64,000 nt of DNA from Dacryopinax spathularia (lineage: Eukaryota > Basidiomycota > Dacrymycetes > Dacrymycetales > Dacrymycetaceae), in contig JBBPFI010000005.1 of assembly GCA_037974965.1 (NCBI GenBank), positions 124,001-188,000 of the forward strand. The letters run 5' to 3'. Below, piece by piece: positions 14,292 through 40,664 of the stretch. The notes beneath the pieces were generated by a model that worked only from the letters and a program-made list of their open reading frames with translations, made no database searches and was not told the origin of the DNA. The translations under genes and the position numbers were made by a program. Each line of letters begins with the position of its first letter. Positions within the stretch are counted from its first letter, which is position 1.

Positions 14292-14296
14292 CTACT
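14292..14296. repeat. Left target-site duplication of the giant transposon
   Basis: CTACT directly precedes the left terminal inverted repeat. The same five bases directly follow the right inverted repeat at 40665-40669. A 5-bp duplication fits insertion by a retroviral-type (rve/DDE) integrase, a class that makes 4-6 bp staggered cuts. Confidence 0.9.
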
Positions 14297-14321
14297 TACG
14301 GAAACGCTAAGTGAACAGGTC
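14297..14321 (+). repeat. Left terminal inverted repeat (25 bp)
   Basis: It matches the reverse complement of 40640-40664 exactly, and 62899-62923 directly. Identity to the right end stops sharply after base 25. A partly similar motif (CTAATCAGGTCCC) follows just inside. Confidence 0.93.
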
Positions 14322-14727
14322 CCTAATCAGGTCCCGCCTTGCGTGGACCCCGAGTGACTACAGTGCAACCCTCCCGTCATTTTTTACCATATAATCCCTT
14401 CCGTGTCCCGGCATCTGATTCTATTTCCTTCCACTCGAGTGTGCCTGACCACGCGCCCGATCCCCATTGTCATTATCATTCCGATAATGTACAACCCTTT
14501 CTTCCTTGGCCGCCCTTCCTACTCACAAATTTTCTCAAGAACGCAATGCAAGGTGGACAGAAGCTCAGAAGCATTCTGCGAGATGGGTCTGCTTGCCGCT
14601 CCACCTTGGTCAGTCTGACTCAAGGCACTGCACGCCGTCGCCTCTTTATTCAACCACAAGCCGTTCCCCCGCCCGACTGCGTCCTTGACAGCTCTGATTA
14701 CTCCGACCTCTCCTCGAACTTCAACTC

Positions 14728-16978
14728 ATGGCTTCGCTATACGGTACTTTGCCGACGGACTTCCCTGAATGGCGTGGAGACAGGCTTGCCGCGGTGTTGT
14801 CCGTTGTGCAGCCTATTGTCCAGGGCTTCGATCAAACCGTGGGCCCGCAAGCGTCTTCCACTCGCGGATCTGACAACGACGACACCGTCTTCTGCAAGGC
14901 GCTATGCCTTTGCTTGTCCTGGGGCAGCGACGGTCAAGAATCTTCCGCCATCCCAGCTGTGGCAATGGCCGGCGTGCGTCCCGGCGACACGATTCCTTCC
15001 ATTAGCGCGCAGGCGCCTACCTATACCCCGGGCGAATCGCTGCGCCGTATCTTCACCAATCGACCGGACCTCCCGTATATCTTTGGACCTCATAGAACCG
15101 AAGCGCTTCTTATATCGCGCAACACCACTTGCTCCAACCCGGAACCTGGCCGCCCTGCCGGATGGTCAGTTCAAAACCTATGGATGCTTCCGAAGGCAGA
15201 GGCTCGCCAACTTGTTCGAAGCATCAACAGCTCGTAAGTCCTCGCCATTTTGACTCTATGACTATTTCCAACTAGCCACCAGAGCCATTATGACTTCTCG
15301 TGAGACCACTGCTTCCACCTACACCCGTCGTCTACTGTCTCTCCTTCGATTTCGTGACACCAACCTGCAGTACGCCGTCGTCATCTTTTTGTCTTTACCA
15401 AGCTCATTTCGAGGTCCTCCGTAGATGTATCCTGCGGTATACCCTTCGAAACAACAACCAGAAAATATCTGATCGCCTCAACTCGCTCGACCGTGTGCTT
15501 CGCAACGTACATTTACGCGCGTTGCTCGAGGAATTCTCGCTCTGTTCGTACTCGGGCTCGGGACCCGATCCTATCGTCGTCCAACTCCATAAGCAGCACT
15601 CTTTATGGACGTACATCAATCACCTGGTCTCTCAAGGAATCCGCGTGCGCAACTACAACATAGAATTTGGTCGTTTGAGGCATCCGAGCATGCCGAACTG
15701 CGTTCTCCTCACTTTCCACAACGCGCCTGTCTGGTCCGCGCTCCTGAGCCATATGCTTGGCCAGCTCCGCCTTTGCAACACGACGATCTACCGTCATGAC
15801 GCGAATTCACCCGCGTTGTCTCCCACCGACTTTGAGAGGAACATGAATGCGTTCCTCTACCACCTGGCAGCGCTATCTTCCCTCTTCTATCGGCCGGCCC
15901 AGTCCAGTACAGGTCAAGCCTTCGGGCTCGTGGACATCCTAACTGTGCTGCTGTGCAGTCCCGACTATGGACTGGCCGCGCACTTGAGTGAGTGAACATC
16001 CCTATTGAGATCGTCACACTAACCTGGAGACATAGATGCGAGGGGTAACCCTGCCTACGGCTTCGAGACTCAAGACGCTGCGGAAGGCCCTCCATCCTCT
16101 GTCCCGTCAGATGGGGTTGATGATGAGGTACGATCAGCGATGGCCGACTCCCTCTATGAAGACGATGTGCCCGAGGTCGGTCCCGTGATCAAGGACTTGC
16201 TATACAATGTGGCCGCCTTCTTCGAGGCTCCCCGGATCTGTTTAGCCAAATTTAGTGCGGCGACGAAGGACCCGTGGAAGCCGACGACGTGGTACATTAC
16301 TGCTCAACGCATGCCTGCTCTCATCCTTACGCCGACCGAGCGGGATCACGTTGTAGCATGGCTTGAAAGGATTACCGACCCCAACTTCTTTCCCGATCGC
16401 GACCGCCAGCTTTCACTCAATGCGGCGCTCTTCGAACAGTTCCAAAGGCACGCATGCACAACGGGATTTTGGATGAGTGCCCACTGCAAGACCATCCTGA
16501 TGATGATCATGCGACATGCGGCTTCCTCTCAACGGATTTGTCCTGCTGCCTGCACGCACTTGGACCGCCGTTGTGACTTATACAGTGCGGTCGACGCCGA
16601 TGCTGGCCTGTGTAACGCTCTACAGGTGCGTCCACATCGTACCACCTTACCTGATGGTGCCCTGAAGCCTTCCAGCGTGCATTTCCATTGGCGGTTTGTG
16701 CCAAAAAGTCCTGTTGCAGTTGCTATTTCATGGCACACTACGGTCCAGGTTTCACGGTCAATACGGACGGCACTCACGGTCGCCTCTTCAAAACCCTTCT
16801 CTTTGGCGCAACAAACGCCCTGGCGCTTGCGTTTGCTACCGGTTTGTACAACACGATCATCTACAACGATGTCGGCAGCATGAGCTACCAGAGCTCACCG
16901 AATCGCTCCGCTGAGGTGGGCGAACCGCCAGCGCCTGCTATGACCCTCGGCAGAAGTGTGTACACTAACATCCATTAG
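14728..16978 (+). CDS. Transposon orphan protein A (unrecognised)
   Basis: A multi-exon gene in the left arm. Supported exons are 14728-15233, 15283-15369, 15425-15987 and 16036 to about 16620, then an exon resuming near 16720 and reading to about 16977. Phases agree at the first three introns (GTAAGT/CCAG, GTACGC/GTAG, GTGAGT/ATAG). The donor of the fourth intron (around 16620) is uncertain, and the 3' end may continue past a further small intron (downstream frame reads NAVPMYDINLSYFSVKCN). The product is about 600 aa, globular-looking, with no repeats or signal peptide. Start ATG 14728 (MASLYGTL) is chosen because only this frame splices onward. Recognisable stretches include RRLLSLLRFRDTNLQ, LNSLDRVLRNVHLRALLEEF and DLLYNVAAFFEAPRICLAKF. 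I recognise no family. The same gene starts in the second element copy at 63330 with two base differences over the shared part, so it belongs to the transposon. Confidence 0.65.
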
Positions 16979-17329
16979 CCACGCCTAATGCCGTCCCAAT
17001 GTATGACATCAACCTCAGCTATTTTAGCGTCAAATGCAATCACATTCTGCCTTGTACTGTATAACCACCAGGCTACGGGATCATTCCCCTCCTGTGTCAG
17101 CAATTTCCCTCGTAACAAGAATGTTCATGCAATCGTCGAACCCGAAAACCTCACCAGTCATAGTGCTGCGGAGTTCCTGGTGCGATCGCTTGAGCTGAGG
17201 ACAAACGCTGTCAGCGCCCTCGTTGGTAGACATCGTGGACGGGTAACTCATCTTCTACGCTGTGTGGCAGGGTCGATCATGCCGTGCCCCATCGACCTCC
17301 TCTACTCTTTCGCACGCAGTCGGCACGCT

Positions 17330-18292
17330 CAAGCAGGGTGGGACGCACCTTGCAGTATCATCCGCCTCGAACCGTGTAGGAGGATACGAGCGGTGCGGGC
17401 GTCGTCATGCTCTATCATCTTGTCAGTACTGTGTGGGCGGGCTCGTGCAGGGTGGGACGCAACTTGCACTACCATCCGCCTCGAACCGTGTAGGATCTGT
17501 CGTGCGATATGGGTGTCGTCACGCTCTATCGGCTTTTCAGTACAGTGTGGGCGGACCGGAACAGTGTGGGACGCACCTTGCATTATCACCCGCCTCGAAT
17601 CGTGTAGGAAGCGTCGAGGAGTGCGGGCGTCGTCATGCTCTATCGGTTTTTCAGTACAGTGTGGGTGGGCTCGTGCAGTGTGGGACGTACCTTGAACTAC
17701 CATCCGCCTCGAACAGTATAGGATCTGTCGTGCGATATGGGCGTCGTCACGCTCTATCGGCTTTTCAGTACAGTGTGGGTGGGCTCGTGCAGCGTGGGAC
17801 GTACCTTGCACTACCATCCGCCTCGAACAGTATAGGATCTGTCGTGCGATATGGGCGTCGTCACGCTCTATCGGCTTTTCAGTACAGTGTGGGCGGACCG
17901 GAACAGTGTGGGACGCACCTTGCATTATCACCCGCCTCGAACCGTGTTGGATGCGTCGAGCGGTGCGGGCGTCGTCATGCTCTATCATCTTTTCAATACT
18001 GTGTGGGCGGACCGGCAGAGAGCCGGGATGCACCTTGCAGTATCACCTGCCTCGAACAATGTAGGATGCGTCGAGCAGTGCGGGCGTCGTCACGCTCTAT
18101 CGGCTTTTCAGTACAGTGTGGGTGGGCTCGTGCAGCGTGGGACGTACCTTGCACTACCATCCGCCTCGAACCGTGTAGGAGGCTACCAGCGGTATGGGCG
18201 TCGTCATGTTCTATCACCTTTTCAGTACTGTGTGGATGGGCTCGTGCATGGTGTCACGTACCTTGCGCTATCATCCGCCTTGAGCAACAATG
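17330..18292 (+). repeat. Left subterminal satellite array, 114-bp monomers, about 8 copies plus a partial
   Basis: Successive copies of the block beginning at GGGACGCACCTTGCA recur exactly 114 bp apart (for example 17571, 17685, 17799). Each carries conserved words such as CCGCCTCGAACCGTG, GCGTCGTCACGCTCTATC and TTTTCAGTACAGTGTGGG. Because 114 is a multiple of three, several frames stay open through the whole array on both strands (343 aa on plus at 17262-18293). The array lies about 3.0 kb inside the left transposon end. The same satellite lies in reverse orientation about 3.1 kb inside the right end. I read it as a structural element, for example for transposase binding or pairing, rather than as a gene, but translation is not excluded. 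Confidence 0.92.
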
Positions 18293-18571
18293 ACTGGGGC
18301 GAGCGTTATCAGCCGGCACGGTAAGACAGCCCTAAGCGTGTCGTGTGGGAGGCTTCGGACGGTAGTCTACTCACCCGTCGAAATTTACAGCGCACCATTT
18401 ACTAACTATGTTCTGAAGGCGCGTACACCAGCCTCTAGGCTCCCGTTCGAGGCCCGACGTGACAACCCATTCACAAATAAGTCTGATTATTAAAGGAGTC
18501 GTGCACTAATGGTGGAAGGGAAGTTGTTGTCGAAACGAGAGTAGTTAGGCGGACTGTCCCACGCGGCTTTG

Positions 18572-21187
18572 TCAGTCCATGGCTGGATCACACCCAGGCT
18601 CCTGAGCTTGCTGGGACTCTAACTCCTCCAGCCCAGTGCCCTCAGCGTGCGAGGTCCCTTTCTCATTGTCCTGAAGATACGTTCCGTCCTCCTCCACGCC
18701 CCGCTGGATATCGTTGGTACTGGAGGGAAGCAGGAAGGCGACACAATACTCGTTGCAGACGTGTTCCTCCGGAAAGTTGGCAAAGGCTTCAGGCAGATTG
18801 CCCCCCCCGAAGATACCCCCCTCGATCTTTCTGTGGCATCTGTTAGTACGATCCCCCGTGACATTAGTTCACCTACGGGCTGGTCATGATCTGAGGGTCG
18901 GTTAACAAAGTATTGCTCCCTGAGGTGCGTCAGCCCCAGGCTACTTCTGTATTGTGTACACACTTGCCTTGGTAATCACTGACATACACCAAGCCACCCG
19001 TCTTTTCGTATTGCAGGTGCTGCGTGAATGAGAGGAAGCTTGCAATGCGACCCTCTTCCCCCGAAACTACTTGCGGAATTGCAGATGCGTTGTGCATGTA
19101 CTTTACAAAGCGGCCTCCGTGGGTGGCGGCAATCACCTCTTCGATGAGATAGGCTTGGCTCGATCTTTTGCTGGATTTGCCAATTCGAAACATGCCGCAC
19201 TTCACGAAGCGCAAGCGCGGGATGAACAAATCGCGGAGGGGATCCTCCTCGTTGGAGTTCTGTATCGCGACGTCGACACAGGCATAAGCCAGATCCAGCA
19301 GCGACGCGCCCCACATCAGGTTGGTCATCTCTCCGGCCAACTTGGCTTCTTCCTTCGCCTTCGTAATCCGAATCCCCCCGTCGGTCCAACGTTTCACGGC
19401 AACCTCGCAACCCCCGTTGACGGAGAACGGCCCCATGTCGCCCGACGAGCTTGTGTCCCCGCGCATATACAACACAAGCGTACCCGGATGTGTAGTTTTG
19501 AAGCTGCCAGGCGGACCTAGCATCGACTCTATGCGCTCGTCCACTGTCAACTCCGCGGTCCACCCTTTCAGCATCCAGTCGAGGTTGATTCGGAACTGGT
19601 TCCGGATTAGCGTAGAGAATTTAAGCGTCGGCGCGATGATGAACAGGCCCATCTGACGAAAGACACCTGCATATCATCTCAGCAGCCAGACGTGGGGACA
19701 AACCGCAGCCGTACCATCTGGCGCCCGCATCCCAATGATGTCGGCCCCGCTGGTCACGAGTGCAGCTCGGATGGCGGCCCTCTCAGGTATTTCATCATAC
19801 TCCGTGTCGACCTGCGTCCCTGTCGGCTTCACCTGCCGGGAAGCAGAGGTCTTCTTGGTTGGGGGTGACACGGGAGGACTCGTAGCCTGCTCATTCAACT
19901 TTAGAAAGGTCCATGCGGCTTGAAGAAAGCTCACCGAGCGACCCTCTTCCGGCTTGTTCCGCTTCCTCGTGATGTCCATGACGCTCCGTGTCTCGCGCTG
20001 CCCGTCTGTTTGGGTGAAGGAAGGGGATGCGGTCGCTGTGCGGCCAGCTGTGGGAGCAAGTCCAGTTATCGGCACCGTCACCAGCGCTTCCAAGTGGTTT
20101 TGGACGGCCGACCATAGCTCGTACGACATCTCCAGGCGCACATCGAATTGCTTGGACTTCAAGAAGATGGGCCCGTTGGCTCCCTTTGCTTTTCCTCCCT
20201 GCCGACCAAAACATTCGCTGTAAAAAAGCGGCTCTGTGGGTGGAAACCTGTCGTAGTCCGAGCCATTCTTGCCGCGCAGCTTGAAATCTCCCATCTGGAA
20301 CGGATATCCCCTGGTCTGCTCCAGGAGCGGCCGCTGCAAGATCGAGAAACACGTGCTTTTGATCTGTGGGCCCGTGCTACGAGCCGGCATCACTTGCATA
20401 TCTTCTAGGTTCTGATTAGAGAGTCAGTATGAGCGCGGCAAACGTCCACGGACCACATCGGCCAGGCTGACCTTAAACAAGTGGGAACCCGGCCGACCAT
20501 GCTCCACGAAATGGACAGCGAACTTTATCCTAATAGTCTCGGGCTCCACCGGGGCGTAGGCTTTAGATAGGAACCGTTGGCGGTCGGCCTCGTAGTGTAG
20601 ATGATTCGGCGTGTAGCCCCGAGTGCCGAGGTGCCCAATTGTAGATGCACGGGAGCCGCTGGGCCATATTGCCGAAGGAGTCGCAGCCCGGTGAATGTCC
20701 CGCACGACAGTGCCGAGCGCCTCCACTCTTGCTGGACCTGATCGTTTCAGAGTGGATCATCAGTCCTGAATGCAGGATGTCACTCAAATATATGCTTACC
20801 CCCTCTTTTGATCTCCTCGTTGATGCGACGTATCCCGGCAACGTCTGGTTGAGGCATTCGTGGGGGGGCCGCGTGGTTTAAGTCAGTCCTCGCGCGGGTA
20901 TCTCGAAGCGCGGTTCGCTGCACGGTGGCTCCAGCCTTTTGTTGGTAATGCTCCCAGCATTGGAGACAGACCGGTTGGGGTTCGTTGTGGGCATTGATCA
21001 GTTGATACTGCTGTCCACGTGCGATATAACCATAATGGGCGGGCGCCACGGCGGGGTTGGTGCTCCCTGCCGACAAGCAGCTTTCGCGTCGACGACAGTA
21101 AAGAACCTTATCGGCAACTTCAGTGAGTCCACCAGGTGCAAGAAGCAGTTTGCTTCCCGCCCCTGTCGTACCGCTGGTAGTGTGCAT
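18572..21187 (-). CDS. Alpha-type (atypical) protein kinase with basidiomycete N-terminal region
   Basis: Multi-exon, minus strand; start ATG at 21187 is tentative. The N-terminal part has a cysteine-containing module (VLYCRRRESC, VCLQCWEHYQQKAGAT) of the type found upstream of alpha-kinase domains in mushroom-forming fungi, followed by a variable linker. The kinase domain reads CEVAVKRW (ATP lysine near 19394), RFVKCGMF, AYLIEEVI, GGRFVKYMHNASA, FLSFTQHLQYEKTGGLVYVS, then LTDPQIMTS after an intron. It ends with GGIFGGGNLPEAFANFPEEH and HVCNEYC, the C-x3-C zinc module of alpha-kinases. The stop is at 18572. All core motifs seem present, so an active Ser/Thr kinase is likely. It lies inside the transposon, divergent from the integrase. 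Alpha-kinases are strongly expanded in Agaricomycetes; carriage on a mobile element is one possible reason (inference). Extra N-terminal exons may exist in 21190-21980. Confidence 0.8.
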
Positions 21188-21968
21188 TGCAGTTGTGAAT
21201 GAAAGGAGGACGGTGATGGAGAGGGGTTGACTGAGGCAAAAGATGGGCTGGTCGAGGTGAGGGGGATAGTTCGACCGCTCTTTCCTGTATCACAGAGGTT
21301 GGGGCAAAGACGTTTTGTGTCGTGGAGGTTGAGGCCAAGAGGTCCACGACTTTTTCCTGTATCACAGCGGATGCAGCTGCTCCATTTTTCTTGTCGGGTC
21401 CGCCCGATATTGACCGGCTCTGCAGCGTCAGTATTGCACATCAGCTCTACCGGTTCCATCTCTCCACTGAAGATGCTTCTCTTGTGATTGATTGAGGGCC
21501 GACCAACGGGCAAAACCTCTAGAAGAAGGCTCCTGTATATCATGCCGTGCTGTTCAGCGGAATGCACAGGGGTTCAACCGACTCACGCATCCCGATTGGA
21601 GGTGCCGCCTTTCTTCTATCCACACCGCCCATCGTGATGGGTACTCGGATCCCGCGATTTGACGGCCGCAAATTATAATGGTAGTAGCCTCGAATTGGGT
21701 GGATGCCATCAGCACGGGTTCGTTGTGACTCGCGGCGATTGCTTAGCCGGCCCGGCAGCGTCGGCATGCTTGCCCTCATGAGGTAATTGTAGGAAGCGCG
21801 CCTCCGCGGAGGCGGCAGCGGAGGAATTACCTCGGCCCTCATACTATCCCTCTCAGGGTCTGCACCCCGTATGCCCGCCTCGTCACCTCCTGCTTTCTGT
21901 TGGGACCTGCAGGGTATGGCTCTCGCTTGTCCGTCCCGCCCACAGCAACTTGTCTCCCTCCTAGCCAT

Positions 21969-23802
21969 ATGAACATAGCGCAGGCCTCACCCAGGGCGCG
22001 GCCGGCCCGTAACCGAAACCAACATAGACCCAGTGGTATGTGGTCATTCGCGCTTTCCAGCCCCTTTGACCTGTGTCGACAGTGCCCGACGACGTACTGA
22101 ACGAACTGATCAGGAAATATTACAAGAGAGGAATGAGAGATAGCGAGATTGCTGACGCAATCAAGCTGGATGTGCGTGCTGTTGAACGTGGTTGGACGCT
22201 TGGGTGCGCCGCCTTCCTTATGTTGCCGTACCGGAGGGCTCACCATTGCGACTAAGTGCTTGGACTATTCGCCGGCGAAGAAAGGAGCTGAATCTGCTCA
22301 GCGTCCGTCAACAGAAGCACGATTTGGAATCCATACGGCCGCATATTGACCTTGTACGTCACGAGTATGGACCAGGTGGAATGAAGAGAACTGCGGACTG
22401 GCTAAGGCTACATGATGTTCATGTCTCAGAGTGCGTACTGTCCTGTGACGTATTCGCCAACCGACGTCTTCTCCCCCAGGAAATTAATCGGCAAGTACAA
22501 CGCTACCTTTCATCCCGATGAAGTCGCCCAGCGGAAGGCTCATCGTTTCGCTCGGAGACATTTCAGCTCTCCGGGCGTGTTCGCATTCATCGCAGTGGAT
22601 CAGCATGACAAGTGGGGGAAATACGGCTTGTGGCTTCACCTGGGGATGGAGCCATTCTCAGGTGCTATTTTATGGCTGAAAATTTGGTGGACCAACAAAA
22701 ACCCTCGGTTGATTTTCAGTTATTACTTGGAAATGGCACGGAACATTGGAGGCACGTCTGGTCCCGTTTGCAGATACGTGCTTGCTCACGCTCGCAGGCA
22801 TACCTCTTCTTACCCAGAGCGATCCGGGCAGCGAAAACAATGGCATTGCCAACGGTCACAGTATGATCCGGCAGAAACTGGATCCCACGCTCGTCGGCAC
22901 CTCACAGCACGTGATCAAGCGTGGACACGGTAATATCAAGCCCGAGGGCAAGTGGTCCCAGCTTCGTAAGGAACTCAGCCCATCATTCAAAACTCTGTTT
23001 CAAAAGGGTGTCACCGACGGATGGTATGACGCCGGGGTACCTCTGGATAAGTGCGCGTGGGGCACTGGGAGACATGCACATGATCATTGATGTTCGGGCA
23101 GCTTCATTTTTCGACGACTCGCTATACCCTTCATGCAATCTCGCCTCGATGCTTATGTGCAAATGCACAATAACAGCAAGCCTCGGGCCGACAAGAATAA
23201 GATTATGCCGATAGGTATCCCACAGGATATCCTCGACCATCCTGAACGATATGATAATGCTCGAGACTATCGAGTGAGACGGTCTAGCCTCTTACTCAGG
23301 CTGGTACCCTAACAGCCTTCGCAGATCATGGTCACCGAGGACGATCTGGCCTCCGTCGAGGCGCTTTATGCCCCTGCCGATCACCCTGTCTTTGAACTGG
23401 TGCCGCCCGCTTTCGAGAAAGAATTCCATACCCATTACCGAGGTATGCATCCCGACGAAACGGCACGGTGATGAGCCAGCTGAAACTCGTTTAGCCTTAG
23501 GTTCCCCCCCCGTCTCCAAATCGAACTTTTGGGAACTATACCACCATCTACGGGCCCGCTTCCTCGCCTCCGACCCAGATCAGTCCCTTCGGACCACGTT
23601 GGCAAACCGAACCGCAGAAGAAATGCTTCTTAATAACGAATACCTCGATCTTCTACCAGATGTAGATCTTCACAGCGAGGAGGAAGGCGTTCCAGTCCTG
23701 GGGATGCACATCGGCGGCGTCAAGCACGATCTGCCGGTTGCAGGCGGTCTCGTTCCCGAGGTCCACGACTTGTTCCAGCCCCTGTTGACTGATGGTGTAT
23801 GA
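21969..23802 (+). CDS. DDE/rve-type integrase, likely transposase of the giant element
   Basis: Spliced from ATG 21969 (MNIAQASPRARP); intron 22036-22082 joins in phase to VPDDVLNELIRKYYKRG, an HTH-like segment. Later exons read LSAWTIRRRRKELNLL, HEYGPGGMKRTADWLRLHD, then the catalytic core: FAFIAVDQHDKWGKYGLWLH (first Asp), WWTNKNPRLIFSYYLEMA, GIPLLTQSDPGSENNGIANG (second Asp) and NIKPEGKWSQLRKEL (candidate Glu, about 40 residues on). After two more introns come FRRLAIPFMQSRLDAYVQ and ADHPVFELVPPAFEKEF, typical of the integrase family widespread in basidiomycetes. The C-terminal exon reads FWELYHHLRARFLASDPDQ and stops at 23802. All blocks are open and catalytic residues intact, so the enzyme is probably functional. 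It is the only recombinase recognised in the element and agrees with the inverted ends and 5-bp duplication. The acceptor of intron 2 (near 22225) is unusual and the last 40 residues are uncertain. Confidence 0.85.
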
Positions 23803-24133
23803 TCCATCGTTCTTCTGGAGGCCCGGATGTCTGTACTGCTCGTCAATCTCCTGTAGAACGCCTGCGAATTTTAACGTTGTGCTTCCCCAGCAGCCGGGAC
23901 GGCCTTGCGTGGTTTTGGTCCCGCCGATCGTGTCATTCCAAAGAACTGGATGCGCCCTGCTCTTGAGAGATTCATTTACCAAGGTAGCGGATGATGGCGG
24001 TAGCAACCACGTAAGGCACGCGTTTGCTTCCGCCGTTCGTGGTTTGGTTCCCTCGCGGTCATCGCCCGCCGATCATCATTGCTCGTCTTCTTTCTACTCG
24101 GCGATTACCATCATGCCAGCGTCTTCTACCTTG

Positions 24134-26263: not shown

Positions 26264-26605
26264 TTTTCGCGTCAATCCCGGGTCGAAATATGGGAATGGC
26301 TCTCGTTTGGCAATACGGGACCTCTGGCAAGTGGGAGTGTGCATTGTACATTAATGATCCTATCCTTCCAACCGAATAGTACACAATGACTGAGTCGAGA
26401 TGGGTCACACCCCAAGGAGCGACTGAACCGTGCGCCTGAGCATGGCGAAGACCTCTCGACCTTCTGAATTATTCAACCCAAAAGGATAACAAGGGTATAT
26501 ATATCCCAGCTGCTCGCAGGTGGCCGGGCGATACCGGCGCGGGAGTCGCAGGTATTCGCAGACGGCACAGGGTCCATTGGGTTTTGTCGGTGACTGCATG
26601 CATCG

Positions 26606-28524: not shown

Positions 28525-28973
28525 TGGAGGGGCTACCGGCGCGGCCCATTGGACGAGAGGATAGCAACGTGAGTGCCTAAGAGCAAGAGTTGCAGGGACG
28601 ACAGCCTGTGGTTCGTGTGAAAGGAGTTACGGCGGGCCAAGGTTGGCCCTGCCGTGGGGCGAGGCAGTTACCCCCCCCCCCCCCCTCCTGTGTCTCAGGC
28701 CAGCGCATGGCGATACCGCGCGTAATACACGGAGCCTTTCTCTAGATTCTATGTTCCAGAAGCCGGAAAGCACAGCCACTGAAATAGGCAATGGGTGTTC
28801 ATGACCTTTCTATATATGGTAATGGTACCGGCTGCGCACAGACAGAAAAGGCATTATTGGTCAGGCGGTGACCGATAGGCAGAGGAAGCACGGATTCGCG
28901 GAACCGAGATGGTTACAGTGACCCTAACCACCGTTTCACGTCGGGATCTGTTTTGATCTACAGCCCAGGCCTA
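28525..28973. other. Spacer between orphan B and PIF1 gene with a 15-C run
   Basis: About 450 bp without a gene. It holds an uninterrupted run of 15 C at 28671-28685. It should include the 3' end of the PIF1-like gene and the promoter of orphan B, both minus strand. Confidence 0.5.
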
Positions 28974-31346
28974 TCAGTTCATAGGTGCTCCCCGCCCAAC
29001 GAAGGAAGGGAGACATGCCAATTTCGGCGGAAACTCTTCAACTTGGAGCCCGTCAATACTAGTAGCCCGGGTCAGGATGGTATAGATATGACCTGGCACG
29101 ATGTCAGAAAAGCCTCTCCCACTACTGGTATACGTACCGGCTTCCCACGCTCGACCGGGTTTCGCTATGACCCAGTCCAGGCTATGTCCCTGCATGGCGT
29201 GTACGGTTCCAGCATACGCAGGGACAACGTCAACCTGGGCGGCAGTGACAACACGTATCATGATACGGGCTGAAAGGACTCACTTGATGGCGATGCCCTA
29301 CCATATCCCAACGGAGTTGCCCGCTGGAATCGCGGTATTTGTCGTCTATATTCCAGTCCCGAGAACGAACAAGAGCAATTTTGGCCGGTCGGCCCGCGAT
29401 CTCCACGAATTCGACGATAGGATATTGAATGGAGCTGAAATGTGGATCGCGTGGATCGTCTGTAAGTTTCTGAAAAGCCACCTGCGTCTTAGCGGTGAGT
29501 TCCTCTGCGGTGAAGTTGCCGAGATCCGCCTCTCTCTCCATCCAATCGTCCACCGTCACAAAACCCCGCACATAGCCGAAGCGACCCTTGACAAGCTCGG
29601 CATCTTCCTGCAAGTTGCGTTGCAGCCGGACCCATGCACCGACTTTGAGCGTGACCAAGGACGGCGCGCCGCTACGAAGCAAGAGGTCTCGAGCCCTCTT
29701 TTTGGTGATCTCAGTACTCCAAATCGTATCCTTGGCCTCGTAGTGAAAAGGATGCCCTGGAAGTCTTTTGAGGCAGGTGTTATTGATCCGGGCCACGTCG
29801 TTCAGGTGAGTGACGCTGCGAAAAAGGCACATCAATACGATGGTGGTACGACGGTGTGCTACTTCGCCGTTCAGAGCTTACGCACATGTAGACGGCTTCC
29901 GTATCAGGAGGAGGATGGATCTCGCGCGTGAGGTAGGCTAACAGCTTAACCGAGCTTTCAGACAGCTTCTCGTTGCGAATATCTTGCAATAATCGAACAA
30001 AAGCTAGGTAAGTTCAGACCCAGCCTGATGTTAGCGTGGTACGGAACTGCGTACACGGGTCCCGCTGTTGGTACACTTGGGTGATAAACACAGTGTTCTC
30101 CTGGCTAGGAAACAGGGTGCCCCAACACCGCGCGTCGAAGGCGTATTTCCCGTGTCTTTTACCGTATTTGTTCACAGGGGGCAATTGAAAGAAGTCGCCA
30201 GTGAAGACCACCTGACAACACATGAGACAGCTCGGGGGAAGTGAGGGCCAACTGACTTGAATGCCACCAAAAGGCCTATCACACTTCCGTACTGCCCGAC
30301 CCATGCGCTCAACATAGTCCAACAGCTCTGCATCCAGCATTGGAACTATTGGAAATCAGCAGATTACAAAGGCCTCCACCCGGCGGCGTACATACCTTCA
30401 TCGACCACCAGAAGATCCGCCTGGGTCCATCGTCCCACGACTTCCTCATCCCGAAGGATTCGATTGCGCTTGTAATCGAAGTCGTCTTCCCCTGTACCAA
30501 TACCCGCCCATCTGTGAAGAGTTTGACCACCGATGAGGAGGGCGGCCAGATTAGTTGTGGCAGTCACGGCCACACGGCGCCGCGACCAATGACTGCTTTC
30601 GCATAAAAGCGTGATTTCCTTCACAAGACTGGATTTTCCGCATCCTGAATGCGCACGGATTAGCCAAGAAGCTGTGCATGAAGGGTTGTAGGCATACCGG
30701 CAGGACCTGAGAAGAAGACGTTACGTCCCGAACGAACTAGCTCTAGTATGTGGAGTTGCTCGGAGCTCCAGACGATGTTTTCGGGGGGATGTGCAGGGAA
30801 TCGTCTGGGTATTGCCAGCGGGTCATGTGGTATGGGGCTCGGGCTGTCCGCAGCATCGTTAGGAGGGGCCTTCATGCCCGGCCCAACGGAATGGTTGCCA
30901 TCGCCGGGAGACGTGAGGCACCCGGTGTTCGAAGTGTCAGTTTTCGGCTGCGTATGAGGGCGTTCTGTGAACACCAGCGTCTTTTGCGAAGAACTGGTAG
31001 AGGCAATGGCTGGGGGTCCTTTCGCGTTGGCGTGACCAGTAGCGATTGCCACGTCGAGCGCCGCTGTGCGAGCCACACCTGGCGTCTGGCGTCTGTTTTC
31101 AGGCAGTGCTGTCCCATGTTGCTTATCCCGATTCGGTGCCATGACGGACGATGCGTGCGCTGAGGGTACAGGCACAAGATACTGTTGATTGTTCACGGGG
31201 GGTCGGGCAAAGTCAAGCGGATTGATCAGTGACATGGAGCTGATATCTCGGTAGAGCCGGTCCATGGTGGCGGCGAAATCCGCCCGCCAGTAACGATCAT
31301 CGTCTTCATCGTCATCCCCGTCCAGCAAGTGATCATCGATAAGCAT
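28974..31346 (-). CDS. PIF1-family DNA helicase encoded in the transposon
   Basis: Multi-exon, minus strand, from ATG 31346 (MLIDDHLLDGDDDEDD) to the stop at 28974. A disordered acidic N-terminus of about 200 residues precedes the helicase core. Splicing out 30645-30697 creates the Walker A motif GPAGCGKSSLVKEI; unspliced it is broken. Further motifs in order are VTATTNLAALLIGGQTLHRW, LLVVDEVPMLDAELLDYVE (Walker B), VVFTGDFFQLPPV (motif III), YAFDARCWGTLFP, VTHLNDVARINNTCL, AYAGTVHAMQGHSL and YTILTRATSIDGLQVE (motifs V-VI). These are the SF1B PIF1 signatures. Walker A has Cys where PIF1 proteins commonly have Thr before GKS. PIF1 enzymes unwind 5'-3' and help replication through obstacles; here a role in copying or resolving the element is inferred. 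No HUH/Rep domain is fused, so it is not a Helitron RepHel. Confidence 0.85.
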
Positions 31347-31623
31347 GGGTAATATGTGAAGCACAAGAGCGACGGGAGAGCCGGAAAGCGCACAGCGACA
31401 CGATGATCGAGAAGAAGTTCAAGGGGCGAGGTCCTAGTAGCGGAGGCGCCCAAGAAGAGACGCGCATAACAGGCGCCCGAGTGTAATTGGATCCGATGCA
31501 CGCCGACTTCGTCACAGTGGAGAGTGAAAAGGACGACTATTGAGCCATACTTTGTACGGTCGTACGTATTCAAGTCACACTACCTGGGTCAACCTCGCGC
31601 ACCTCTCGATCAATGCTCTACTC

Positions 31624-34600
31624 ATGGGACCACTTCCTTCCCAGGGCCACGAGAATAAGCAACTCTTCGAACCGGCGAACAGTGCGGTCATCCGGGCTAG
31701 TGCGGATCCGCCAGCCGACCTGGACGGCGAAGCGGTTCGACGCAAGATAACTGAAGTACTCCCAGATTTCGTGCGAAGCACCCTCGACGTTCTTAAGCGG
31801 TACTGGAAAGACAGGGACAAGGCTCTGACGTCGACCGCCGAGCGCTTGGAAGTACTGGAGAGGCAAAGCAAGAGATTGGTATGCCGCATGGACCAGAACC
31901 GTGGCTGCGTTGAACTGAGGAGATCCAGTCGATATATGCGCGTTTTTACTTCTTCACTGGGCTGTCGACTTCCCATCCCCATGCTCTGGTGGACGCGCTA
32001 CACTACTGGTGCCAGAGTGTGAACTTAATTTGGCAGTCGGGCGACCAGAATGGTTTCCATCGATGCTACCGAGGTTTCGACATTGAGAAGATGCCGCCAA
32101 ACTATTTCAGGAGCGTCAGCTTCGTGAAGGCCGCTCTCCTTCCTGCCTCCCCGAAACCGATTGACTTTGTGGAAAACGATGGTACCATCGATCTGTGGGT
32201 TACGCATGAAGGCTCGGCACAACCGGTGAAGGTGGCGTGGTCCGGGGTGCTGCGGATACTATTCGGTCAGTTCGTCACAGGCATATTGGGCGAACTCGGT
32301 GCCTCGCCCTCTATTCCGGACAAGCGCACGCCAGAAGGAGTGAAAAGCGTTCAGACCTGGCTGGACGCCGCAGCCGCGCTGTGGGTAAGCGTAATACCGA
32401 GTCCCGCACGGGCTGCTGAATGATGCTTCCTCAGGCGGCAAGCACATTGGCGGCAGAGGAGCTACAAATTGGAGCGTGGCCCGCATGGATGCAAATTATG
32501 CTCATCCAACATATGAACTACGCCGCCGAAGCGTGCGCACTGATGGGAATGGATGTCCACAAAACACTTATCTTTGGGCCAAGAATCCCGCCGAGCCTGC
32601 AAGCTTACGTCCTTGGCCGGCGGCCCTGGCTGTTTTCCTACCTCCCGTCTTCCCTGCAGTCCACTCCGAAGCAAGGGAGATGGTGGGAAGAGGACCGCTC
32701 TGAGCTGTTTAGCAGGCAGCTCGAGTACTGTCAAAGGATGATCGACGCGGAGCTGGGAGCTAAGCTCGTACAACCCGCACGGCCAGAGCCTTCCTGGGAG
32801 ACCTGTGGTGGTAGTCCCGTATCGGTGGAGCTTTACTTATATTACGCCGCGGAAGATACAGTAAGCACGCGCAGTACAGCAGAATTGGCTTGACACTGAC
32901 TGGCTCCTCTCAGACCGCATATCTTCTGCAATGTTACATTGCAGGACTCGAGCCGCCCGCGCCGATGATCAACAAGATCATCAAGACACTCAGTGACCTG
33001 AAGAAGGTGCTCGAGCTCTTACCCAATACTCCTTCTGCAACTCTGGCAATACCGATTCCCAGGAACATACTGCCGAGAACTCAAGTATCTCGGACCTCCA
33101 GCGATCGTTGCAAGTTTGTCCGTGGAATAGGAAGGAAGGGTTTGAAGGACTCGACGGAAGTGATTTGGAGAGAACGAATGACGGATTTGGCCGTCCACAA
33201 GTCTCGTAGCTTGCCTGTTGATGAGTGGGCGGAATTGGTGAACGAATACGTGGTTTGTAACTGCATTTCACACCATTCTGCTCGCTCAGCGAAGGAACAG
33301 GGAATCTTCTACGCCTTGTATTTGCCTCAAGAGTACGCGAAGTATCGTCGTCATACCCTGGTTCAGAAGATGCTTCATCGGGTGTACGTCCATTTCTCAG
33401 CCAACGGTTTGATGGCACTACGAGACTTCATCAATGTCCGCAATATCCCCGACTACGTGCGGAACGAGAGTGCCTCAGCATATGAGCAGACCGTGGAACA
33501 GCAGGATGAGGAAGTGCGCGAATACGTCAATCGGTCCATCCAGCTCTGCACCACGTTGGGTCCGGACGGGCAGGAAGGTCCGGGGAGTAGGCAAGCGTTC
33601 GTGCCTGACATGGACACCCATAGGAATGCACGGGGGCAACCTATCAATATGACGGTACAACGACCTGGCAATCCAGTCCCTGCACGTGCTGCGGCTCCCT
33701 ATCGACTGTCGCCGCGAATCGAAGGGCGGGACGCAAAGCGGGATGGCACACCCCCACGAGTAAGCGTGCCCAAGGCTCATAGCCCTATAACATACGAGAA
33801 CGCCATGGTTTGGGATGTCGATCTACCATCTACGGGGGACGCCTACTCTGGACATATCGACGAAAATCACTGCCCGGACCCCACGGGCCAGCGCGATGCG
33901 TTGCAGTCGGCGGAGACAGTGGCCGACTCTCGCACTGACATCGCGGATGAACGCCTGGGGCTCCGTACTGTGGAGAAGGTGGTGCGATGGCTGGACGAAG
34001 TAGAGGAGGGAGAGGGAGACCCCGGACCCAGCTCGCGCACTCGGTCACGTACCCGCTTCATCAAGACCAAGGGGCGATCAAATGCTCACACTGAGGGACA
34101 ATCCGACGCTGTGGAGAGGGAAGGACCGGAGGGGACTGGCACCAGCATCCATGCGCCCCCGGAGGGGCATGTCGTTCGGGTACGCGCGAGCGGTGCGAAG
34201 CCATCGCTGAAAGGGAAGGAGCCGGCACACCAACAGCCGCGGGAGGGACGCGGAGACGTCCCGTCTCTACTGGACGGTGATGGGGAGGGCATTACGCGTC
34301 CCTGGGATAAAGTTATCCGGTCTGGCTCCGTACGGAACAAGGGGAGTAAACGCGAACCACTCGACCGTCTCATGGACGAGGAGGAGGACATACACTGGGG
34401 TAGTTCGGACCCAGCGGAACCAAGCGAGCAAGACTCCACGGCAGACAGTCATGAGGCACCCATGGACGGTGGAACAGGACTGACCGTCCTTGACGATCCG
34501 CTACGCAGGCGGCTGAAATGGTACTACGACGGCAAGAAGACTGATTTTGAAGTCCCGATATGGATAGCGTTCAAGTCGGCGAAAGCCGTCGTCAAGGTCG

Positions 34601-35316
34601 ACTATTACAAGGACGGGATGCATGCGGGTCACTCATTCGGCCCTGTCTACGTGGAACCGGATAAGGTATCGACCGGGTTGATTAGGGAATATGGCTGGGT
34701 GGTCACGGCCAGGCCTGGGGAATGCAGCATCGTGGTGAGTTGGCATGCCTGTCGCGGTGCCCATTTGTTTACGACCGGTAGTTCTCCCACGGTCCATATC
34801 GTTGTCGCGAATGCCAAGCAACATATCATCCATTTGATCCGCGCCCACGGTCCGCACGCAAAGATGGGCGAAAGTCTCGACTGAAACCCAGGCCGGAGGT
34901 TCATCCCGGATTTCACGTGAGGAGGAACCCAGTACAGGACAACGACGAGGAGGTAGCGGAGGTGCCATGGTACCGAATGACGGAAATTTGTGTCTCGATT
35001 CCCTTCGGCAAGTGCATCTCCTGTTCCGACCGAGGCCGCACATGCGAGTATTGCACCATGAATACGAGGGACAGTGCGTGGCGACTCACGAGCTCGGATC
35101 ATGACTGACTTACTCACAGTCCCCCGACATGTTTGGTTCGAGCCTGGGGAGAAGTGGGCGGGTGGGAAGGAGCCTTCCCGGGCCGAGATGTATGAATGGC
35201 TATCGAAGCTCCAAGGTTGGACGTTGCCGAGGCCACTGACGAAGCATCAAAAGGAAGTGGAACGGAGGAGCGGGAAATTGGTTAAGCCTGAGGACGAAGA
35301 GATGGACTCAACATGA
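31624..35316 (+). CDS. Transposon orphan protein C (large, unrecognised, C-terminal CxxC cluster)
   Basis: Starts at ATG 31624 (MGPLPSQGHENK), divergent from the PIF1 gene. Exons 31624-31878, 31929-32384, 32435-32860 and 32914-34734 join in phase. Then a less certain acceptor near 34900 leads to GFHVRRNPVQDNDEEVAEV and a final exon ending at 35316. About 1,100 aa. The N-terminal half is globular and helical (FVRSTLDVLKRYWKDRDKAL, WCQSVNLIWQSGDQNGFHRC, FSANGLMALRDFINVRNIPD). The middle is a charged disordered region (residues about 500-850). The C-terminal region has GKCISCSDRGRTCEYCTMN, a CxxC-x6-CxxC cluster probably binding zinc. No family recognised. Gag-like or DNA-binding roles can be imagined, but nothing in the sequence shows them. 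Confidence 0.6.
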
Positions 35317-36034: not shown

Positions 36035-37560
36035 CTAGTGTAGGCGGATGATACTGCAAGGTGCGTCCCACACTGTGCCGGTCCCGCCCACACTTTGCTG
36101 AAAAGCCCATAGACAGATCCTACACGGTTCCAGGCGGATGGTAGTGCAAGGTGCGTCCCACACTGTGCCAGCCCGCCCACACTGTACTGAAAAACCGGTA
36201 AAGCGTGATGACGCCCATACCGCTCGTATCCTCCTACATCGTTCGAGGCGGGTGGTACTGCAAGGTGCGTCCCACACTGTTCCGGTCCGCCCACACTGTA
36301 CTGAAAAGCCGATAGTGCGTGACAACGCCCATATCGCAAAACACGACCTATACTGTTCGAGGCGGATGGTAGTGGAAGGTGTGTCCCACACCGCACGAGC
36401 CCGCCCACACTGTACTGAAAAACCGATAGAGCATGACGACGCCCGCACCGCTCGACGCTTCCTACACGGTTCGAGGCGGGTGATAATGCAAGGTGCGTCC
36501 CACACTGTTCCGGTCCGCCCACACTGTACTGAAAAGGCGATAGAGCGTGACGACGCCCATATCGCACAACACGACCTATACTGTTCGAGGCGGATGGTAG
36601 TGCAAGGTGCGTCCCACCCTGCACGAGCCCGCCCACACAGTACTGAAAAGATGATAGAGCATGACGACGCCCGCACCGCTCGTATCCTCCTACACGGTTC
36701 GAGGCGGATGGTAGTGCAAGGTGCGTCCTACACTGTGCCAGCCCGCCCACACTGTACTGCAAAACCGGTAGAGCGTGACGACGCCCGCACCGCTCGACGC
36801 ATCCTACATGGTTCGAGGCGGGCGATAATGCAAGGTGCGTCCCACACTGTTCCGGTCCGCCCACACTGTACTGAAAAGCCGATAGTGCGTGACGACGCCC
36901 ATATCGCACGACAGATCCTATACTGTTCGAGGCGGATGGTAGTGCAAGGTGCGTCCCACCCTGCACGAGCCCGCCCACACAGTACTGAAAAGATGATAGA
37001 GCATGACGACGCCCGCACCGCTCGTATCCTCCTACACGGTTCGAGGCGGATGATACTGCAAGGTGCGTCCTACACTGTGCCAGCCCGCCCACACTGTACT
37101 GAAAAACCGGTAAAGCGTGATGACGCCCATACCGCTCGTATCCTCCTACATCGTTCGAGGCGGGTGGTACTGCAAGGTGCGTCCCACACTGTTCCGGTCC
37201 GCCCACACTGTACTGAAAAGCCGATAGAGCGTGACGACGCCCATATCGCACGACAGATCCTATCCTGTTCGAGGCGGATGATACTGCAAGGGGTGTCCCA
37301 CACTGTGCCAGCCTGCCCACACTGTACCGAAAAAGCGATAGAGCGTGACGACGCCCCCACCGCTCGACGCATCCTACATGGTTCGAGGCGGGCGATAATG
37401 CAAGGTGCGTCCCACACTGTTCCGGTCCGCCCACACTGTACTGAAAAGCCGATAGTGCGTGAAGACGCCGATATCGCACGACAGATCCTATAGTGTTCGA
37501 GGCGGATGGTAGGGCAAGCTGCGTCCCACACTGCACGAGCCCACCCACACAGTCCTAAAA
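36035..37560 (-). repeat. Right subterminal satellite array, 114-bp monomers, about 13 copies, inverted to the left array
   Basis: The GTTCGAGGCGGATGG word and its variants recur every roughly 114 bp, thirteen times. Read on the minus strand the units are the same as in the left array, including TTTTCAGTACAGTGTGGGCG and CCTTGCACTACCATCCGCC. Two or three monomer subtypes alternate (ending GGACCGGAACAGTG or GGGCTCGTGCAG). Frames of 506 aa (-) and 451 aa (+) stay open only because the period is divisible by three. The array mirrors the left one at nearly the same distance from its end. Confidence 0.92.
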
Positions 37561-37871
37561 ACCCGATTAAGCGCGGAGTGAAGTCGGGTACTGCACCAGG
37601 CAGCTGATATGATAAGGTAAGTCCCACCCTGTACGATCCAGACCACCACGCAGACCGGAGGATCCGCCGCTCATACGGCGGTATGGGCTCCAGCGACCTT
37701 GACCGCGGTCGCTGTGCTCAGTACATCACAAATTCCGACAAGGCTCTATCAAGAAGCAGAAGCGCCTCTAGCCCAGATCATTCGGCCTCAGATGGTGCCA
37801 CCCTCATAACCGAATCAAGCCACAAAATGTCAGATTGCATGGAACTGTACAGATCTGGTTGGGCGCCGGCA

Positions 37872-37879
37872 TATATAAA
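37872..37879 (+). promoter_or_regulatory. TATA box upstream of the small helical-protein gene
   Basis: TATATAAA lies 115 bp before the ATG at 37994, in a stretch free of other features. The position is plausible for a fungal core promoter with a short 5' UTR. Confidence 0.45.
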
Positions 37880-37993
37880 GGGTATGGCCCCTGCATGAAT
37901 CGCTGGGAGCCTTCCCTCCCTCTACCGCCCAACATATTGCTGAAAGGAGAGTTTCCCGCCAGATCCAACGACAAGTCCATTTGGTACGCCTGA

Positions 37994-38389
37994 ATGACGA
38001 CCTTGGCCTTCTACGCCGTACAAGCACGATGCCAGGACGCTCTACATGCACTTGGTATGTGCCGTTATAGGTATATTGAGATCAACTGACAAGAAGCAGA
38101 GCGGCTACAAGCGACCCCTTACAACAGTTCTACGTATTCGCAGCTGAGTCAGCTTTCTCAGTTGATCGAGGAGGAAGGCCAGGTCCTTCATCAACGCCAT
38201 GAAGAACAGTGGGCGACAATCAGGCGGCGCATCTACGGGGATAGCACACGGGACGCGGCCAAACTGATTGAATGCCAACTACGACTGCTCCTCGCTCAGG
38301 AGCGCGAGATAGCGTTGCTGGTTCGGCAGTGGGAAGATGACTTGGCAGCTGTATTGAGGAGCGAGCGGGCAGACAATTTATGTGGTTAA
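37994..38389 (+). CDS. Small helical protein in the right arm of the transposon
   Basis: Two exons (37994-38054 and 38100-38389) separated by a 45-bp intron (GTATGT...AGCAG) give 116 aa in one frame. The product starts MTTLAFYAVQARCQDALHAL and continues QLSQLSQLIEEEGQVLHQRH and LLLAQEREIALLVRQWEDDL. It is rich in L, E, Q and R with heptad-like spacing, so mostly alpha-helical and perhaps a coiled coil. No family recognised. It lies between the right satellite array and the F-box gene, on the same strand as the latter. The clean intron and conserved phase favour a real gene. Confidence 0.6.
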
Positions 38390-38588
38390 GCAATGTACAA
38401 GCAAGTGGACTGGATGCGAGAGCACAGAGCTTTTGATATATACCCATACATCCAAAATGGATGGAGCTGAGAGACGTACAGCGACAGCACTTGGGTCAGA
38501 CGCACGTGATGCTGAGTCGCGTCGTACCTCTCAGAGCACGACGACTACGGTGTCATCGGACAACGCGCGTTGTCTGTAGTCCGACACC

Positions 38589-40172
38589 ATGGCGAACACC
38601 ATGGCAGAACAAAGCAGCACTCACAAAGTACTGGGCATCCAAGAGCTACTCGAGAACGTGAGTTTCTACCTGACGGCCAAAGAACGGATTAGCCTGGGGC
38701 GCGTATGTCGGTCGATGCGACGCGTGTTAGCTCAAGCATGGGAGGACGCCGATTTCGTGCATATATGCGCCTTGGTCCATGCCATGGATCAAAACGTCGA
38801 CTGGCTGGTAAAGAATGTCATTCGGTGATTAGTCGACTTGCTGATTGCGATTAAGACGGAAGGAAGAATCAACGCTTATCGCTGCGCAGTTCGTGTTCTG
38901 AAACTGGAGCCACAGACGGTAGACAACGCCGTCCAGCAAGTCAAGATGCTCATTCGGATCTGCAAGTGGGCTGGCGGTCGCGAAATCTTTCCCCATCTAC
39001 GGGAACTCTCGCTTACTTGCAATGACTGGACGGGAATGAGCGCTGCGGTGCGGTGCTTCTCTTCGACCCTGCGAAGGCTGGAGGTTGAGCTACAAGTTCC
39101 TGCCATTGGGAGATCGGAGCGCTTCAAGAACTCCATGTGTGTCATGCTATCGATGCTGCCGGACAACAGCCCCTACCTGGAAGAGCTCGCCCTTCGCCGG
39201 AGCGGGGAGAATGGAGCGGCTCATGTGTTACCTTCGCTGGCTTTTCTCTCCCGACTCTCGGTGCTCAGGCGCTTGGTCTTGGACTGGGCATTTGTGTGCA
39301 CGGATGCACTGGAGCGCCTGGCGATCTCGAGAGTAACGCACCTGGACGTAGTTGGCGGAGATGACGCCCATGACTTCGGACTGTCCAACGTTGTGATGCG
39401 CGAGGCTGAGGCTGAGCTAAGCGCTTTGGAAGTCGTGCATCTTCGTGGCTCGATGACGAAGGCGAACGCCCTGCTTCTCACCCTTAACGCTGCACCGAGG
39501 TGTCTTAAGCTGGACTTAGGTGAAAAGGATGGTATGCTGTCATACGTGCAGATTGCTGGAACGATATCCCTCTTCGCCGAGTCTCTGCAGCTTGTTCACA
39601 TAGGTATACGGGGAACCTCGGATAAATCAATAGACGTGCCCATGGACATTGGCACACTCCTACCGCTGGCCACCTGCAAGAACCTCAAAGACTTTTCGAT
39701 CGACTACGATAGCCCCCAGCCGATAACTACTATGAACGAGACGGTGTTGCATCTCACAGCGGGCTGGAACCATCTCGAACGCTTTCGTGCAGCGTGGGGG
39801 AAGGAGGCAAAGACCCGGCGACTTTTGGTCTCGGGCATCTCTAGTTTCTTCATAACGGATATCGCCGAACTGACGCATACCTGCCCGAATCTGCGAATCA
39901 TGGAACTGACATCCGCAGCATTCGAGGAAGATATGGAGTGGCCCCAGCCGGCCGCAGAAGACCACAAGCTACGCCTGCTCTTGGACGATATCGTTGCCGA
40001 TGAGATGTACCTCGCGAACACCATGGACCGGATTTGGCGCGGACTCGATATTCGGTTCACCGGAAGCACGCCGTGGGTCTTCACTGCTGCGAAAGAATAC
40101 AACAAGCGGATCCATGCGGCGAAGGACAGGATCAAGTCGCGTGCACGTTTGCGTTTGGGGCGACCCGCATAG
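38589..40172 (+). pseudogene. F-box/LRR protein gene with one in-frame TGA
   Basis: One continuous frame from ATG 38589 to the stop near 40170 encodes about 527 aa, interrupted only by TGA at 38826-38828. The N-terminus is F-box-like (VLGIQELLENVSFYL, ERISLGRVCRSMRRVL). The rest has leucine-rich, irregular repeats (FPHLRELSLTCNDW, LEELALRR, LRRLVLDWAF, LEVVHLRG), ending RARLRLGRPA. Around the stop the reading is VKNVIR-stop-LVDLLIAIK; a Trp codon changed to TGA by a G-to-A transition would restore sense. No GT-AG intron of realistic length removes it. The gene is the last before the right inverted repeat. F-box proteins are substrate receptors of SCF ubiquitin ligases. It is either a recent pseudogene, a strain-specific null allele, or a sequence error. 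ATG at 38838 could still give a truncated LRR protein. Confidence 0.7.
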
Positions 40173-40639
40173 TCCTCCAGAGTACTTTACTGCAACTGCG
40201 AAGGGCGATGAACCGTGGAATTCGAATGAATTATGGCGTATCGTAGTTAATGATGTTCAAATACCAAAGCCGAATAATGAGACAAGGTGACAAGCTCGAC
40301 GTCCCGGGTGCAAAGCTCTGGAACTCGTGGGCGGATTGTGCCGAATGCTTCGGGTGAGGCATCGAACTGTTGCAAGGATAATGTGATACAAAAAGGCCGG
40401 CCCAAACATCTGCGGTAGTGTTGTGCAGGTGTGGTAGGATACAGAGGCTAGAAGGAATATCCGTTTCGTTTCCGTCCGAGTTGGGCTTTGTTCGCGCGAG
40501 ATCCACGGCGTGTGTAGGTCCGCGGACGTATATTGGGAATGGTAATTACTGGCCGGTCACTGCTCATGCAGCTTCGTTACTGGTTTTGGGGTCTCAGCGG
40601 TTGTGTTGAGGGTCCTGTTCACTTAGCCCCGTGCAAATC

Positions 40640-40664
40640 GACCTGTTCACTTAGCGTTTCCGTA
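40640..40664 (-). repeat. Right terminal inverted repeat (25 bp)
   Basis: Exact reverse complement of 14297-14321. Just inside, at about 40611-40628, a second copy of the CCTGTTCACTTAGC core is present in direct orientation, so the right end carries the motif twice. Confidence 0.93.

Follow-up and report, generated by a model that had tools for sequence, protein, structure and literature searches.

The described elements closest to the one reported here are the IS3EU DNA transposons. In the published passages drawn on, every complete IS3EU family has TA..TA termini and lacks an HHCC motif, and the target-site duplication (TSD) is usually of 6 bp (PMC10045372); the TET+ IS3EU elements of rust fungi have TAYGG..CCRTA ends, 6-bp TSDs, terminal inverted repeats (TIRs) of more than 30 bp and an alpha-kinase gene lying opposite to the transposase (PMC12730594). 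Styx of Zymoseptoria, an IS3EU-related element of 7.9 kb with four open reading frames (ORFs), is mobile, with a non-replicative mechanism favoured by its authors (PMC10853768). The present element, of 26,368 bp, occupies positions 14297..40664 of a 64,000-nt stretch of Dacryopinax spathularia DNA (GCA_037974965.1, contig JBBPFI010000005.1, 124,001-188,000 of the forward strand), referred to here as the window. It is a real multi-copy transposon and not an artefact, because its copies share their ends, have six distinct TSDs and carry eight recurring genes which are under purifying selection. The whole, including its paired repeat arrays, its PIF1 helicase and clamp-like protein and its putatively host-acting genes, is probably best explained as an autonomous 26-kb, eight-gene DNA transposon of IS3EU-like type.

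Boundaries and copies of the element

The copy in the window (copy A) is bounded by two 25-bp TIRs beginning TACGG, at 14297..14321 (+) and 40640..40664 (-), the right being an exact inverted copy of the left (TACGGAAACGCTAAGTGAACAGGTC), and it is flanked on both sides by an exact CTACT TSD (14292..14296 and 40665..40669, both +). Both the inverted ends and the duplication had been read in this DNA by an earlier note, and the sequence confirms them; the complete integrase-type element which that note described is likewise borne out by six copies whose ends all agree. The genome (29.2 Mb, 24 contigs) was scanned with the 25-mer, allowing up to three mismatches, and 12 occurrences were found (11 exact, one with a single mismatch), all of which pair into six convergent elements, copies A to F. 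The reversed pattern, used as a control, gave no match in the whole genome. All 12 ends begin with TACGG, the single difference lying at a later position in one end of copy D. The six copies measure 26.4, 26.0, 26.4, 26.8, 26.3, and 47.7 kb and each has its own exact TSD of 5 bp (CTACT, CTGAA, GCCGC, GACTC, CCGAG, and CGTCT), all mutually different and in none of the six extending to 6 bp.

Copy B begins within the window, its left end (TSD CTGAA; 62899..64000, +) being recognized by the 25-bp terminus and by identity to copy A, and the whole copy lies at C5:186899-212865. The earlier note mentioned neither this start at 62899 nor the two inverted 114-bp arrays described below. Copies A and B are both on contig C5, 22 kb apart and in the same orientation, and are 99.1% (over 21 kb) and 97.1% identical in two long blocks. 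The other four, with the same ends, are spread over three further contigs. Three long blocks align C with F at 95.7-97.2% identity, and the core blocks of C, E, and F have about 69-80% DNA identity to A; copy D can be aligned with A in a single 0.8-kb block (71% identity).

The left end with g1 is far closer between A and E (86% DNA identity, g1 dS 0.37) than most of the remainder (dS 1.0-1.3), and one end, that holding g1 in these two copies, may have been exchanged recently between families. Copy F (C8:1216261-1263962) has 21-23 kb of extra DNA between g1 and its terminal repeat, including a PIF1 frame of 2092 amino acids (aa), a frame which may be Helitron-like. C and F differ by 669 substitutions. 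CpG transitions that leave T or A in F make up 250 of them and those in the opposite direction 35, an excess which fits methylation-linked decay of copy F.

Gene content and conservation

Eight genes, g1 to g8, were modeled in a splice-aware manner steered by conservation among the copies, with gene ends approximate where conservation stops, and all eight are present in all six copies. Each is under purifying selection, with ratios of nonsynonymous to synonymous substitution rates (dN/dS) of 0.05-0.29 among copies A, C, E, and F. The young C-F pair is excluded from these values, as are comparisons with D, most of which are saturated; the values were computed on models where g5 can include the PIF1 tail. 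The lowest are those of the integrase g3 (0.05-0.08) and the PIF1 helicase g6 (0.09-0.12), followed by the alpha-kinase g2 (0.12-0.15), g7 (0.17-0.18), g5 (0.16-0.21), g8 (0.19-0.22), the clamp g4 (0.19-0.24), and g1 (0.11-0.29); the C-F pair has higher values (0.27-0.71). Seven models covering the eight genes were scanned against Pfam at E<=1, one of them with the integrase fused to the RAD9-like gene.

The DDE integrase/transposase g3 (21969..23802, +; eight exons, 497 aa) was identified from the conservation models, the Pfam family PF24764 (rva_4) and motif alignment. Its D-D-E catalytic motif is found in all six copies, and D161, D218, and E259 align on the canonical D-D-E of PF24764 proteins from the same genome, with 40 residues between D218 and E259 vs. 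34 in the canonical proteins (counted by eye on the alignment). PF24764 matches all four of the integrase members scanned, the best (E-value 3.6e-7) being in a copy other than A. The first catalytic D is residue 161 in the models of A and B and falls at 202-244 in the longer ones of C to F, and upstream of it neither an HHCC pattern nor a CxxC occurs in any of the six models. A profile search of IMG/VR with the integrase gave no relative.

The PIF1 helicase, RAD9-like gene and alpha-kinase that had been named previously all score above their Pfam cut-offs. The helicase g6 (28854..31346, -; 3′ end approximate; PF05970, E-value 1.6e-29) possesses Walker A, Walker B, and C-terminal helicase motifs. 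Walker A is present in all six copies, being split by an intron in C and F. The product of g4 (24113..26256, +; PF04139, E-value 1.6e-16) is a RAD9/PCNA-like clamp with a long, poorly conserved tail, its start codon and tail being approximate; on the integrase-fused model the Rad9 profile reaches 61 bits against a cut-off of 25. A search of PDB gave PCNA at E-value 0.00017, a weak match in which no single stretch is significant alone. The alpha-kinase gene g2 (18490..21632, -; PF02816, E-value 1.3e-14) has approximate outer exons and a conserved part at 18620-21214, and lies opposite to the transposase in all six copies. There are 17 alpha-kinase loci in the genome, 11 of which (three being copies A, B, and E) have an integrase like that of copy A 2.9-4.0 kb away, nine in opposite and two in the same orientation. 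With 11 of 17 loci adjoining such an integrase, transposons may carry most of the expansion of alpha-kinases in a genome of this kind. The last gene, g8 (37994..40172, +), encodes 630 aa with a weak F-box match (E-value 0.0025, below the Pfam cut-off).

Three large orphans had also been reported, corresponding to g1, g5, and g7, and g8 with its sub-threshold F-box match makes a fourth. The three were delimited by comparison of the copies. The first, g1 (14728..16954, +; about 700 aa, 3′ end uncertain), is a distant homolog of g5 (26405..28524, -; six exons, about 620 aa), with an hhalign probability of 96.8 over 431 columns. The two have in common an HxE...CxxC signature, which is HCE..CxxC in five of the six g1 copies and HPE..CxxC in all six of g5. 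In copy A, HCK replaces HCE and its g1 may therefore be inactive. We take the signature to be of deaminase type; an OTT_1508-like deaminase profile gives weak support for g1 (E-values 0.03-0.18 in Pfam) and none for g5. This assignment is weakened by a genome-wide search with PF14441, as nothing was above the cut-off and the one sub-threshold match (E-value 0.09, C1:484671) lies outside the element copies. The third orphan, g7 (31624..35316, +; seven exons, 1139 aa), has relatives at 35 loci of the genome and no match above threshold in Pfam, PHROGs, or NCBIfam, and likewise none in PDB for one g7 relative. Seven pieces of g1, g5, g7, and g8 were searched against PHROGs and NCBIfam without a match, and searches by sequence detected no relatives of g5 and g7 beyond this genome.

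Repeat arrays and related loci in the genome

The six-gene core of the element is flanked by two arrays found by repeat analysis. The left array (17333..18280, +) consists of 114-bp repeats of 19/38-bp modular structure, with the motif GGGAYGY mostly in phase, and the right array (36112..37567, -) has repeats of the same 114-bp length in the opposite orientation. Such arrays are present in all six copies. The left begins 2.9-3.4 kb from the left end; the distance from the right array to the right end is 3.0-3.7 kb in five copies and 26 kb in F, because of the large insertion on that side. Their periods are 114 (A, B, and E), 152 (C and F), and 76/38/19 bp (D), all multiples of 19. Within one element the left array has 82-96% identity to the right. 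Across families, the arrays of A and B match E at about 71% over no more than 428 bases, those of C and F match E in short stretches, A and B gave no match to C, F, or D, and D none to any other copy. The two arrays of an element evolve in concert. A coding function for the arrays was considered and rejected; they are open in several frames, but stop codons occur in the matching stretches of E (6 and 10) and C (8). Gene order shows the core running one way in A, B, D, and E and the other way, inverted, in C and F. The breakpoints fall within intervals containing the arrays, which fits an inversion that may have arisen by recombination between them.

Related loci were searched for with g7, g5, integrase, PIF1, Rad9, and alpha-kinase queries. 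Exon matches were merged by hand into loci and then clustered, and the resulting counts are lower bounds. In this manner 64 g7 matches gave 35 loci, 52 of g5 gave 17, 19 of the alpha-kinase gave 17, 78 of the A-like integrase gave 19, 32 of PF24764 gave 22, and 52 of KDZ gave 29, while 104 PIF1 matches gave 90 places, 42 with an open frame under 450 aa. Six of the 35 g7 loci in the 29-Mb genome are copies A to F. A short-frame PIF1 match lies within 20 kb at 31 of the 35, compared with a random mean of 2.5 and maximum of 9 (2000 trials, nine contigs), and this co-occurrence of g7 and PIF1 is a new observation, as are the concerted evolution of the arrays and the inverted core of two copies. 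Every one of the 17 g5 loci lies within 20 kb of a g7, and an integrase of either type is found at this distance at 17 of the 35 g7 loci. Short-frame PIF1 is within 20 kb at 11 of the 19 A-like integrase loci, and six of the seven loci with Rad9 matches, one being copy E, have g7 or PIF1 no more than 20 kb away.

The locus C2:684900-694300 combines g5 and PIF1 with a long g7 frame free of interruptions, and no integrase was detected within 20 kb of it. Near C3:1.63 Mb there is a sister element, the ends of which were not found in two 2.2-kb flanks. Sister families also include the twin pairs C7:107-113k / C2:2955-2960k and C4:928-939k / C8:808-819k. KDZ elements were considered as carriers of the g7 loci lacking an integrase and were rejected, none of the 29 KDZ loci being within 30 kb of a g7 locus.

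The element is flanked in the window by a gene with a 1347-aa frame possessing FYRN/FYRC domains (8063-12106), within which there is a short 15-bp tandem repeat (10751-10908; CAGCAACCTTCCCAA), and by a gene for a HAT/TPR-repeat protein resembling pre-mRNA splicing factors (41244-42941). Further downstream, a 775-aa open frame (48742-51069, -) has no Pfam match at E<=0.01.

Proposed mechanism, alternatives and known elements

In an autonomous IS3EU-like transposon, g3 would be the enzyme acting on the ends. It would recognize the TACGG...CCGTA termini and join them to the target at a staggered cut, the 5-bp stagger itself being shown by the six exact 5-bp TSDs of the six copies. The iteron-like inverted arrays flanking the core probably bind a protein of the element and recombine together, which would account for their concerted evolution as well as for the inversion of the core in two copies. 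Iterons and the 2-micron system offer analogies for this. PIF1 has a role in break-induced replication, and it is reasonable to infer that the PIF1 and RAD9-like genes serve as replication or checkpoint factors of the element. Together they may aid the copying or repair of its 26 kb by long-tract synthesis resembling break-induced replication, during or after strand transfer and with a host polymerase, a step that is put forward tentatively and at less than an even chance. For the alpha-kinase and for the F-box protein, whose match is weak, an action on signaling or silencing in the host is more likely. A bolder scheme, in which a DDE transposon would copy itself with its own helicase and sliding-clamp-like protein, using the arrays as sites of synthesis or recombination in the manner of 2-micron, with PIF1 and g7 and often g5 as the core of a large superfamily, is unlikely.

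The main rival is a plain cut-and-paste IS3EU-like transposon, where PIF1, clamp, kinase and F-box protein would only manipulate the host, damping the damage checkpoint at the excision break and countering silencing. This is a serious possibility, if short of an even chance. The anatomy of TSDs and TIRs is the same under both readings, and Styx moves with its 7.9 kb and four ORFs, by a mechanism that its authors favour as non-replicative, the words "helicase" and "alpha-kinase" being absent from the main text of that paper (PMC10853768). However, the strong constraint on PIF1 (omega 0.09-0.12) and its recurrence with g7 over divergent elements are more than would be expected of disposable cargo. 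It is rather doubtful that the g5-PIF1-g7 block is a module of its own, captured by or exchanged among several mobile elements with the integrase element as one carrier. The absence of a detected integrase within 20 kb at 18 of the 35 g7 loci, 16 of which have a short-frame PIF1 match, does suggest that the module may not depend on the integrase, and the three genes stand together at C2:685-694k. Nevertheless, all eight genes are together in copies A to F, the KDZ result leaves this module with no alternative carrier identified, and divergent integrases could have escaped searches based on one protein and one Pfam family.

An integrated virus or a Polinton/Maverick relative is very improbable. 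The integrase, inverted ends and large size would suit it, and capsid genes could in principle hide in g5 and g7, for which no relative is detected beyond this genome. Against this, no polymerase B or capsid match was found at E<=1 in the products searched, the weak matches inside the PIF1 protein being to generic AAA and viral-helicase families, and divergent members of g1, g5, and g7 gave none either, with no PHROGs match for the pieces tried. The genes are also intron-rich, IMG/VR lacks a relative of the integrase, and the TSD is of 5 bp vs. the 6 bp given for Polintons (PMC10045372). A segmental duplication or assembly artefact, which the proximity, shared orientation and 99.1% identity of A and B over 21 kb might suggest, is refuted by the six independent TSDs; A and B themselves differ in TSD, and the four diverged copies (core blocks about 69-80%) on three other contigs have the same ends.

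Several observations weigh against the autonomous IS3EU-like reading. Besides the 18 g7 loci with no integrase detected, short-frame PIF1 was undetected within 20 kb at eight of the 19 A-like integrase loci. The Pfam scan found no DNA polymerase in the element (E<=1), so that replication would rely on the host. As C and F are closely related, one event most simply accounts for the inversion of the core in both. AlphaFold models were of low confidence and unusable, with a mean predicted local distance difference test score (pLDDT) of 52.5 for the g7 relative and 33.7 for the C-terminus of g1. The single integrase claimed by the earlier note is upheld by the aligned D-D-E and by the PF24764 match in another copy, but the integrase of the window falls below the family cut-off (20.1 vs. 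26 bits; E-value 0.00055, and 0.0023 in another scan). The TSD is of 5 bp in all six copies instead of the usual 6 bp of IS3EU elements in the passages cited. It should be mentioned that lineages of hAT transposons differ among themselves in TSD length (PMC12730594), which makes an IS3EU lineage with 5-bp TSDs plausible, though unproven. Finally, the transposase is linked to IS3EU by its similarity to PF24764 and by published traits, and "IS3EU-like" is the label used.

The earlier note had held that the gene set fits no known class and represents a new one. The first part stands for Polintons, Helitrons, Starships, and KDZ elements, as the Pfam scan at E<=1 gave no match to polymerase B, capsid, HUH/Rep, tyrosine recombinase, or KDZ in the element, but it overlooked IS3EU, which matches in termini and in placement of the kinase. 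The proposal of a new class is accordingly not retained, since the published traits of IS3EU are matched save for TSD and TIR length, and the element appears to be IS3EU-like and not of a separate class. No transposon of such a kind with a PIF1 and RAD9-like gene set was found described in open-access PMC full text, Repbase entries and supplements being outside this scope. The helicase and RAD9/PCNA-like clamp suggest that machinery for DNA synthesis or for the damage response is, in part, brought along by some eukaryotic DNA transposons themselves, an idea that six copies, conserved paired arrays and an inverted core make directly testable.

Like Polintons/Mavericks, the element is large, with inverted ends and an integrase, and differs from them in its 5-bp TSD and in having no polymerase B or capsid among its products at that threshold. 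Starships are giant fungal cargo elements, a likeness to the present one, which however has a DDE integrase, TIRs, and TSDs and no tyrosine recombinase match in the scan. A PIF1-type helicase is shared with Helitrons; here it is a separate intron-split gene in an element with TIRs and TSDs and no Rep/HUH match. Unlike KDZ elements, PF18758 is not among its Pfam matches. Styx is likewise a fungal transposon with several genes and an IS3EU-related DDD/E transposase, but is described as having 7.9 kb, a 6-bp TSD and ORFs for a transposase, GATA/CCHC motif proteins, and DUF3577 (PMC10853768). By comparison with the published descriptions of IS3EU, the element differs in its 26 kb, PIF1, RAD9-like clamp, g1, g5, and g7, weak F-box gene and paired inverted arrays, and from the TET+ elements in the exact TIR of 25 bp (copy A) instead of more than 30 bp, with no TET/JBP match in the Pfam scan. 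It resembles IS3EU as described in its TA..TA termini, in TACGG..CCGTA ends conforming to TAYGG..CCRTA, and in an integrase-type DDE transposase without an HHCC finger whose first D lies 100-300 residues from the N-terminus, and the TET+ elements in an alpha-kinase gene opposite to the transposase. The cited passages characterize IS3EU elements through the termini and a small number of genes; the present element is a giant relative with eight genes under selection.

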